DNA from: a virus
Direction: 5' to 3' (one strand)
Length of the DNA: 40,257 bases
Virus record (IMG/VR): IMGVR_UViG_3300030430_000409
Location: 1,007 to 41,263 of that record
The translations under genes and the position numbers were made by a program. Of the stretch, positions 37,106-40,141 are shown piece after piece. The notes under the pieces were generated by a model. That model saw nothing but the letters and a program-made list of their open reading frames with translations, was not told the origin of the DNA and made no database searches. How positions within the stretch are numbered: the first letter of the stretch is position 1; the number at the start of each line of letters is the position of its first letter.

Positions 37106-37168
37106 ATGGACTTAACGACATTGTTAATAATAATAGCAAGTGCTATTGTATTCCTACATTTAAATTAA
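37106..37168 (+). CDS. 20-residue hydrophobic membrane micropeptide
   Basis: AAAGGGG at 37095-37100 followed five bases later by ATG, encoding MDLTTLLIIIASAIVFLHLN. Almost the whole peptide is one membrane span with a charged N-terminus, the design of small toxin or holin-modulating peptides. Strong ribosome binding site and clean stop support reality. It might act on host membrane or on the holin; no homologue is recognised. Confidence 0.5.
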   Translation: MDLTTLLIIIASAIVFLHLN

Positions 37169-37231: not shown

Positions 37232-37594
37232 ATGGCTTTATCTACAAGTACCCACAAGGGTAAATCTAAAACTCCTAAGGCAGTAAAAGCTAAAGGTGTT
37301 AAAGCTAAGAGTAAGGTTGTACCTACTCCTAGAGAAAAACAAGGAACATATAAATACGACAGAGATGCTCGTATTCAATTATGTGTTGAAAAGAACCCAA
37401 AGAGAGAAGGCTCTAAGGGTTATAAGATGTTTGAGATCTACAAGAATGGTATTACCATTAGAGATTTCTTAGCATCTGGCGGTAGAACTATCGACATCGA
37501 TTGGGATAGGGAGAGAGGTTTTATTGCTACAGAAGATAGAGATAAAGAGGGTATGGCTAGCAAGACCCCTAAAGCGACATTTACTTTAAAGTAA
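37232..37594 (+). CDS. Lys-rich phage protein, unknown function
   Basis: A 120-residue protein with its own promoter-like site and AAAGGAG. Residues 1-35 are a Lys/Ala/Pro-rich tail (HKGKSKTPKAVKAKGVKAKS) like a nucleic-acid-binding extension. The rest (GYKMFEIYKNGITIRDFLAS, IDIDWDRERGFIAT) is a compact alpha/beta domain, and the order MFxxYKxGxTVxxFL...xDLxWDxxRGFI recalls an early phage family. The structured intergenic region follows. It could be an abundant early DNA-binding protein. Confidence 0.6.
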   Translation: MALSTSTHKGKSKTPKAVKAKGVKAKSKVVPTPREKQGTYKYDRDARIQLCVEKNPKREGSKGYKMFEIYKNGITIRDFLASGGRTIDIDWDRERGFIATEDRDKEGMASKTPKATFTLK

Positions 37595-37651
37595 AGGTTT
37601 CTTTTGTTATTATTAATAATAATATAATTTATTACTTATTTTCTTTTTCTG

Positions 37652-37676
37652 ACAAGGGTCGTATTCCGGCCCTTGT
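37652..37676 (+). terminator. Likely rho-independent terminator
   Basis: ACAAGGGTC (37652-37660) pairs with GGCCCTTGT (37668-37676) through nine positions with one G-U, loop GTATTCC, followed by TTTAAAT. A T-rich tract also lies just upstream (37630-37650). It follows the Lys-rich gene and precedes the structured region. Confidence 0.6.
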
Positions 37677-37682
37677 TTAAAT

Positions 37683-37980
37683 GCTATCGAATACAGTTAT
37701 TCTGGGTAGCTACCGGACACTAACTGTATTCAATAGCGGCGCTATGACTTGGTGTAAGCCTTTCAATAGGACTTTGGTTCGTACCAAGTATAAAACGACT
37801 AAAACGCAACGTAAAGGACCTTAGGGTCGGCTAGGCTCTTTAGTTGACTAAACGGCACGTAACTGTTGTACACAGTGAAATGTTTATAAGTCAACAACTA
37901 GCTGTACCGGAGACAGGTAAGGGCGGTACCTATAAGGGAAATGATAACGAGTCCGATCAGGATTGACATTTCCCACCGCC
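37683..37980 (+). ncRNA. Highly structured intergenic RNA candidate, unknown class
   Basis: About 300 bases without a convincing ORF, visibly richer in G and C than neighbours, with many helices. 37683-37699 pairs with 37721-37737 (17 positions, one mismatch), enclosing TCTGG/CCGGA. ACTTGGT 37747-37753 pairs with ACCAAGT 37783-37789. Smaller hairpins are GACC/GGTC (37817-37828), TTTAG/CTAAA (37839-37852) and ACTGT/ACAGT (37862-37876). GTACCG 37904-37909 can pair with CGGTAC 37924-37929, or GGCGG 37922-37926 with CCGCC 37976-37980, closing GGGAAATG/CATTTCCC (37936-37943, 37967-37974). It may be a stand-alone RNA or a long 5' leader of the gene at 38000. I could not match a known class. Confidence 0.6.
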
Positions 37981-37999
37981 TAGGCGAAAGGAGAATATT

Positions 38000-38191
38000 A
38001 TGGCCAACACAGTAGAAGATCTCATCAACGATATGGTATGTGAAAAGGTTGAGGAAGAAATCAACAACGCAGATATTGAAACTATTGTTGAAGACAAGAT
38101 TAGTGAATACCTAGACGACAATATCACAGACATAATTAAAAACAATATTAGTGACATTATGAAAATAATAGATGCTCACAAAAGTAAATAA
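38000..38191 (+). CDS. Small very acidic phage protein
   Basis: A 63-residue protein with a good AAAGGAG (37987-37993) directly after the structured region. DLINDMVCEKVEEEINNADI and ISEYLDDNITDIIKNNISDI are acidic amphipathic helices, rich in Asp, Glu, Ile and Asn. Such DNA-mimic-like peptides often inhibit host nucleases or RNA polymerase, but this is only analogy. Its expression may be controlled by the upstream RNA fold. Confidence 0.6.
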   Translation: MANTVEDLINDMVCEKVEEEINNADIETIVEDKISEYLDDNITDIIKNNISDIMKIIDAHKSK

Positions 38192-38719: not shown

Positions 38720-38741
38720 AAACAAAAGGAGAAAGAAAGAA

Positions 38742-39224
38742 ATGCATGACGAATATCAAAACTTAGAGAATGACCTTATTGATACTATTCGACATTTTAA
38801 ATCTGGTAGCAAACTACAAGATAGGGCTTTTAAAAAGGCTTATACTTTATTGATATATAAACAGATGGACGAAGTTAATCTTGCTATTTCGAGATTACAG
38901 AGTTTAGTTGAATCATGGGAATGTTGCGATGGCCTAGACGACATAAACGAACTTCCTGGCTTTTGCCATAATTACCCTTTCAAACATTCACTAAATGAAA
39001 TGGATACTATGTGGGGTGATATGACTGAAGAGCAGAAGGGAAAATATAACAGCTTGCAGTTTGAAGCATTAAAAGCAAGACGCAGAAAACTAGGAGACAA
39101 GAAGTATATAAAAGATGGTGAGGTCTATGAAGAGCCTGAATCTGAAGATTACAGAAGAGGTTTTTCAGATGGTGAGGAAAGAGCAAGAGAACACTACACT
39201 GGCGAAAATAGAACTGGTGATTAA
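38742..39224 (+). CDS. Helical phage protein, unknown function
   Basis: A 160-residue charged protein. LENDLIDTIRHFKSGSKLQD and MDEVNLAISRLQSLVESW are helices; LPGFCHNYPFKHSLNEM is a central motif with Cys and His; the C-terminus (EDYRRGFSDGEERAREHY) is highly charged. It has its own promoter-like site and AAAAGGAG. No domain is recognised. Confidence 0.5.
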   Translation: MHDEYQNLENDLIDTIRHFKSGSKLQDRAFKKAYTLLIYKQMDEVNLAISRLQSLVESWECCDGLDDINELPGFCHNYPFKHSLNEMDTMWGDMTEEQKGKYNSLQFEALKARRRKLGDKKYIKDGEVYEEPESEDYRRGFSDGEERAREHYTGENRTGD

Positions 39225-39679: not shown

Positions 39680-40141
39680 ATGGATAAAGGACCAGATAAT
39701 ATTATTGATTTTACTAGTGCCGAAAGTAAGATTTTATCCGACAAGGAAAAGAAGTTTGTCGAATATATCTTTCAAGGTTTAGGTAAGAAACAAGCGGCTT
39801 TAGAAGCCGGCTATGCTCAATCTGCAGCGCACGTTCAAGCTACCCGCCTACTAAAGAAGGATAAAATTAGAAAGGCCCTTGATCGATTACGCTCACTTCA
39901 ACATCAACAAACCATTCACACTATGGACAAGGAGATCGAATCTATTGACTCCATGATCCAAGAAGCTAGAGACAGAGGGCAAATAGGTGCAGCGGTTCAA
40001 GCTGCCAGGCTCAAGGCACAAATGTTAGGGTACCTTGTTGATAAGAAAGAGATCAAGACAACAAACCTTGACACCATGAGTGATGACGACATAGCCCAAT
40101 ACCTTGATTCATTGAAGGCATCCTACAACAACACACACTAG
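39680..40141 (+). CDS. terS: Terminase small subunit
   Basis: A 153-residue protein. LSDKEKKFVEYIFQGLGKKQ then AALEAGYAQSAAHVQATRLL is the helix-turn-helix of the terminase small subunit family (KFVxxYL...n.tqAAi.AGYs..sA...a.rLLk). Helices and a coiled coil follow (SIDSMIQEARDRGQIGAAVQ), then an acidic end (DTMSDDDIAQYL). It recognises phage DNA and activates the large subunit, whose gene should lie beyond the right edge. The start lacks a ribosome binding site. Confidence 0.85.
   Translation: MDKGPDNIIDFTSAESKILSDKEKKFVEYIFQGLGKKQAALEAGYAQSAAHVQATRLLKKDKIRKALDRLRSLQHQQTIHTMDKEIESIDSMIQEARDRGQIGAAVQAARLKAQMLGYLVDKKEIKTTNLDTMSDDDIAQYLDSLKASYNNTH

Follow-up and report, generated by a model that had tools for sequence, protein, structure and literature searches.

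A modular folded non-coding RNA in a phage intergenic slot that probably exchanges unrelated RNA cassettes

The locus and its conserved flanks

The window, meaning the whole stretch of DNA analysed here, is 40,257 nt long and part of a 41,263-base virus record (IMG/VR IMGVR_UViG_3300030430_000409); near relatives of this phage reach 59-64 kb. Its DNA polymerase shares 41-45% identity with those of phage 023Pt_psg01, DSL-LC04 and the pelagiphages HTVC023P and HTVC027P, and the structured RNA described below, which we call W, was found in none of these four isolates with its core model R1. The flanks of W are laid out as follows.

37232-37594, + strand: gene of a 120-aa protein with a Lys-rich N-terminus, preceding the slot; conserved family
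37623-37628, + strand: TATAAT, a tentative candidate -10 element in an AT-rich region
37652-37676, + strand: H0, a 10-bp hairpin (ACAAGGGTCG-TATTC-CGGCCCTTGT)
37987-37993, + strand: AAAGGAG, ribosome-binding site of the next gene; conserved
38000-38191, + strand: gene of a 63-aa acidic protein (MANTVED), kept in sister phages without W

No Pfam or PHROG entry matches the 120-aa family, a search of 50,697 deposited phage records gave no match to it, and the AlphaFold model of the protein is uninformative (pLDDT 41). A profile of the family (A4) retrieved 80 related loci with 61 distinct downstream sequences. A TATAAT-like hexamer lies at most 22 nt from the stop codon in 50 of these 61, in a region that is AT-rich, and a hairpin of at least 16 kcal/mol stability occupies the place of H0 in all of them. 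Compensatory changes are seen in the H0 of sister phages (ACAAGGG/CCCUUGU to AUAGGGG/CCCCUGU). The initial annotation had called this hairpin a terminator, and we reject that reading: the conserved stem is real, but it is followed by UUUAAA or CUAAAU with no U tract, and a terminator scan did not list it. Since canonical terminators are used elsewhere in the same phages (GGGGCCUUCGGGCCCCUUUUUUUU, L025:5308), we name the hairpin H0 and not a terminator.

On the downstream side, the ribosome-binding site that had been placed at 37987 is present. It is predicted to be mostly unpaired with W in place (0.69-0.79), and open with or without W in all variants. Its sequestration by a CCUUUC segment, as drawn in the minimum free energy structure, was rejected because L001 lacks this segment and because the ensemble prediction leaves the site open. 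The annotation was right that W lies upstream of a small acidic protein, yet comparison of the loci indicates that W does not belong to that gene, because the gene keeps its own ribosome-binding site in sister phages without W, while the slot, which can be empty or occupied by other RNAs, accompanies the 120-aa gene and hairpin that lie upstream.

Other features of the neighbourhood deserve mention. A 20-aa hydrophobic frame, possibly a peptide (MDLTTLLIIIASAIVFLHLN), lies at 37106-37168 with a ribosome-binding site, and comparable tiny hydrophobic frames that begin with MD.. are found in L014 (9384-9833) and L025 (5301-5676). These two regions, which are not W, contain many TTGATC words, fold very strongly (z -7 and -4.5, respectively) and lie 3' of a canonical terminator, downstream of a gene related to the 120-aa family. 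Further along the window, a patch at 38720-38960 is 30-48% diverged from L025, L003 and L028 while its flanks are mostly more than 90% identical, a pattern that likely reflects recombinational replacement inside a 160-aa gene.

Stability, parts and pairing of W

The segment 37677-37996 (320 nt) has a minimum free energy of -104.1 kcal/mol and a z-score of -5.6 on the + strand, with none of 100 shuffles equally stable; on the - strand z is -3.7, so that the + strand folds better across the whole element. Among 125 contiguous 320-nt segments of the window it ranks first, both in free energy and in how far it exceeds its shuffles (-26.6; mean -4.3, sd 7.2). Its GC content is 43-45%, compared to 33.6% across the window. 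The fold signal is concentrated in P1 and in P5/P6, and 37746-37820 alone has no excess stability (z -0.3). At the 160-nt scale W does not stand out, many coding stretches reaching a similar z, so the signal comes from the whole element; for the same reason we dropped the z-score as sole evidence and required comparative evidence for the structure. The parts of W are these:

37683-37737, + strand: P1, a long hairpin of 16 pairs; apex replaced between subclades
37748-37820, + strand: module A, 73 nt; cleanly deleted in L001/L025; own fold weak
from 37744, + strand: 26-codon ATG frame without a ribosome-binding site, in module A
37824-37908, + strand: core arm P2-P3-P4; invariant apart from one compensatory and two wobble changes
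37905-37920, + strand: linker ACCGGAGACAGGUAAG; invariant or almost invariant among W carriers
37921-37981, + strand: P5/P6 hairpin (P5 5' strand 37921-37927, 3' strand 37975-37981)
37915-37931, + strand: possible H-type pseudoknot between AGGU (37915-37918) and ACCU (37928-37931); no variation in its pairs

Relatives of W were sought in viral contigs carrying the upstream 120-aa protein, which gave 14 loci. W is present in six other contigs (L001/L025, L002, L003, L004/L027, L005/L028 and L013), while in L006-L012 and L014, from sister phages, its approximately 300 nt are missing and both flanking genes and the upstream hairpin are in place. Across the carriers, pair cells are kept in 408 of 408 cases (100%), versus 29-41% when the partners are slid. 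Six base pairs vary and none is broken: two change on both sides (U-A to C-G at 168/218, A-U to U-A at 263/296) and four by G-U wobble, with one compensatory and one wobble change falling in the P5/P6 hairpin. All four wobble changes keep pairing on the + strand only and produce mismatches on the - strand, which identifies the + strand as the RNA strand. Covariation across related contigs, the check suggested with the initial annotation, gives a real and shallow signal: the score is reached by 2 of 500 shuffles and rests on two double changes in an alignment of seven sequences, six of them distinct, from one clade. Taken from these alignments, it is very likely that W is an RNA whose structure is under selection.

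Insertions and deletions among the relatives affect three parts, which are removed or replaced: the P1 apex, the P6 apex (found in three lengths, each a hairpin) and the 73-nt module at 37748-37820. By this comparison W is modular, since it can do without two hairpin tips and a part of 73 nt, and for that reason it is not evidently a single fold of about 300 nt. Indels of 5, 73, 22/23 and 2 nt break the frame, no reading frame is kept in all relatives, and a conserved protein is thereby ruled out. Short imperfect direct repeats are also present in W, TACCGGA[CG]AC at 37711-37720 and 37905-37914 and GACTAAA[AC] at 37797-37808 and 37846-37857; they are due to chance or possibly to internal copying between modules.

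Searches of Rfam release 15 found no family for W at gathering scores, and the best hit at E up to 10 scored 24.2 bits where 50 are required; its relatives gave no credible match at gathering or relaxed thresholds either. ARAGORN detected no tRNA or tmRNA-like domain, no covariance model of GOLLD, ROOL or HEARO matched, and a group I intron finds no Rfam match at a site that is intergenic and not inside a gene. A phi29-type packaging RNA was rejected too, with no Rfam match and a Terminase_2 small subunit encoded in the window at 39680-40141. Nothing resembling W was found in plasmids and deposited phages, and model R1, run on 38 whole phage records, matched only the six members of the W clade. 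Exact and loop-only DNA patterns, searched in viral contigs and one of them in genome contigs, returned the same six carriers plus chance-like matches; we rejected the one in L058 because it lies in coding sequence, and L062 and the other stray ones because none has a model match at E <0.04. W is a previously undescribed folded non-coding RNA. The functional-RNA reading of the initial annotation holds for a GC-rich, highly structured element that is non-coding and assigned to no known class, and fails for the terminator and the tie to the acidic gene; that W forms a single fold is not evident.

Unrelated cassettes in the same slot and their exchange

The slot, as defined here, extends from the gene of about 120 aa and the conserved hairpin that follows it to the next gene's ribosome-binding site. 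Across the 80 related loci it is either empty or filled with unrelated structured cassettes, alone or in tandem: H0 is followed by the next ribosome-binding site, or by a structured cassette or several, about 40-300 nt long. Those that we recognised are W (in the window clade), X, Y, T and several others.

Cassette X, about 61 nt: L133:3350-3410, L152:558-618, L156:3347-3407, L181:3414-3474
Cassette X, further loci: L186:3424-3498, L187:413-473, L194:3385-3445
Cassette Y, about 63 nt: L136:740-802, L190:3466-3528, L191:3425-3487, L195:3454-3517
RNA T, about 120 nt, same slot in outgroup phages: L145:3420-3537, L146:921-1042, L147:3426-3562
RNA T, further loci: L162:2173-2309, L166:1536-1672, L173:3399-3518
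Further distinct structured cassettes, one to few loci each: L132, L141, L143/L163, L151, L177
Second cassettes downstream of the 120-aa gene: L181, L187, L190, L194

The further and second cassettes often follow an AAAGGAG-like motif.

X combines an invariant or almost invariant core (ACGCCAGU.UAAAACCC..G.GGAGU.CUGCCAGG) with a covarying closing stem of 12-13 bp, in which 5 of 13 pairs have changed on both sides. Y differs between lineages in nearly its whole outer stem, which has been replaced, and keeps an invariant core (ACAUUAAUAAGU...ACAAACGAAAGGG; in RNA letters, ACAUUAAUAAGU...CUAUGU.ACAAACGAAAGGGU); 11 of its 18 pairs are compensatory, all cells are paired and none of 500 shuffles reaches the score, for three distinct sequences. 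T has compensatory changes at 5 of 26 pairs with all cells paired, a long-range pseudoknot that covaries (GGGC/GCCC to GAGC/GCUC, G-C to A-U) and two optional hairpins. The models of X and Y match at the slot only in 0.8 Mb of loci, and that of X occurs once per record in 8 of 27 whole records searched. As with W, there is no credible match in Rfam for X and Y at E up to 2, for T or for the other cassette loci, and neither X nor Y was found in deposited phages.

W and T vary in the same style, with a constant core and optional or replaced hairpins. A common ancestry of the two through a shared ACCUAUAA was dropped, about one 8-mer match being expected by chance and R1 missing T; the W model finds no homologue among the other slot cassettes, and no homology to X, Y or T is detectable. 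It is thus by position and style, and not by ancestry, that W appears to be one more cassette of the same kind.

Cassettes were labelled by inspection of their sequences and with the models of X and Y, and the labels were placed on a tree of the 120-aa gene (79 tips). This tree needs at least 15 changes of cassette state and at least 9 between presence and absence. Near-identical 120-aa genes are followed by different cassettes: X in L186 versus Y in L191-L193; Y in L190 versus X in L194/L181; none in L176 versus one in L177; and X in L133-L135, none in L140 and Y plus another in L136. L141 looks like L136 minus Y, just as L001 is W minus the 73-nt module. X and Y each precede different genes, the MVEKDK... 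gene family (L133-L144) is found with no cassette, with X, with Y plus another or with others, and the MANTVED gene occurs with and without W. We found no tie of the cassettes to a single downstream gene or function; they vary independently of the gene that follows. Judged from these comparisons, the slot quite probably exchanges RNA cassettes.

Possible roles of the cassettes and wider meaning

The best overall explanation, to which we give a probability of about 55%, is that W is a non-coding, modular RNA in a cassette exchange slot, accessory and self-contained. W would be read on the + strand within a transcript running into the next gene, as suggested by the lack of a terminator in between and by a ribosome-binding site predicted to be open, and its modules would fold separately. 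The slot would be bounded by the 120-aa gene with H0 on one side and, on the other, by the ribosome-binding site of whichever gene follows. Each cassette may work by virtue of its own fold, the likeliest binding partners being a ligand or a host or defence factor, and cassettes would be swapped like accessory genes instead of serving as dedicated regulators of the gene that follows. That the cassettes have an accessory, self-contained function is a tentative proposal. Somewhat more speculative is the broader idea of a new kind of phage locus in which unrelated, undescribed RNA families are swapped and act in trans or catalytically, for example against host defence.

The main rival is a cis-acting 5' leader, in which W would tune the translation or stability of the next gene as a stabilising or sensing structure. 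W stops 5 nt short of AAAGGAG, no terminator separates the two, a possible pseudoknot lies directly upstream of the site, promoter-like hexamers occur upstream, all X and Y copies are in the orientation of the following gene and an AAAGGAG-like motif comes after most cassettes; such strict placement between hairpin and ribosome-binding site, in constant orientation, fits a leader as well. However, the same downstream gene is found with a different cassette or none (the MVEKDK genes of L133-L144, the MANTVED gene with or without W), X and Y precede several different genes, and the ribosome-binding site is predicted to be open with or without the RNA. Since cassettes move regardless of which gene lies downstream, we favour accessory, self-contained RNAs over a gene-specific leader, which we regard as rather unlikely. 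More doubtful is a role in cleaving the transcript at the slot, with H0 and the cassettes as processing sites and the cassettes themselves as new small self-cleaving ribozymes or other selfish RNA modules. X and Y, about 60 nt long and between genes in phages, do have the variable closing stem around an almost invariant core of 30-40 nt that is usual for nucleolytic ribozymes and aptamers, but no Rfam family, ribozymes included, was matched, no cleavage site can be singled out, and W is not of the X/Y build.

Two readings would dispense with a functional RNA altogether. Palindromes acting at the DNA level, in recombination, replication or protein binding, could leave RNA structure as a by-product; the 17-bp inverted repeat of P1 folds well on the - strand too, and the slot recombines often. 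Yet each of the four one-sided changes yields a G-U pair and so keeps its stem intact only in RNA of the + strand; this strand also gives the better fold of W as a whole, and the cores of X and Y are single-stranded and invariant, so that this reading is very improbable. Least probable of all is a short protein gene, which would start at 37682 (47 codons) or at 37744 (26 codons): its frames are open in the window, L002 and L004, but they lack a ribosome-binding site and are frameshifted or deleted in L001, L003 and L005, and the only two substitutions in the 26-codon frame both change the amino acid.

The accessory-cassette reading can be set against known systems. GOLLD, ROOL and OLE are large, ornate structured non-coding RNAs of unknown function (PMC12286853). 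W is likewise structured and non-coding, has no Rfam match and is shorter, at about 300 nt. Phages or prophages are frequent carriers of GOLLD and ROOL; these two RNAs and OLE are about 500-800 nt long, and we know of no exchange slot for any of them. The small nucleolytic ribozymes twister, pistol, hatchet and hammerhead (reviewed in PMC6154101) resemble X and Y in a size of about 60 nt, a covarying closing stem, an invariant core and an occurrence in phage intergenic DNA. X and Y differ from them in having no Rfam match. The T4 gene 32 pseudoknot is an example of a riboswitch-like or protein-binding 5' leader. W shares with such leaders a folded RNA and a possible H-type pseudoknot just upstream of the ribosome-binding site, but it is not tied to one gene and the site is predicted to be open in all variants. 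Accessory-gene hotspots in phages, known for proteins, pair one conserved flank with rapid gain, loss and replacement of cargo that is shared across lineages. The slot is alike in its flank and in its turnover, whereas its cargo consists of structured RNA of 40-300 nt and not of a protein gene.

The slot would point to at least three new RNA families (X, Y and T, plus W), of which X and Y, small (about 60 nt) and with invariant cores, are suited to direct assay. A rotating cargo of covarying, pseudoknotted RNAs without an Rfam family would suggest that RNA plays an overlooked part in gene control or in the conflict between phage and host.
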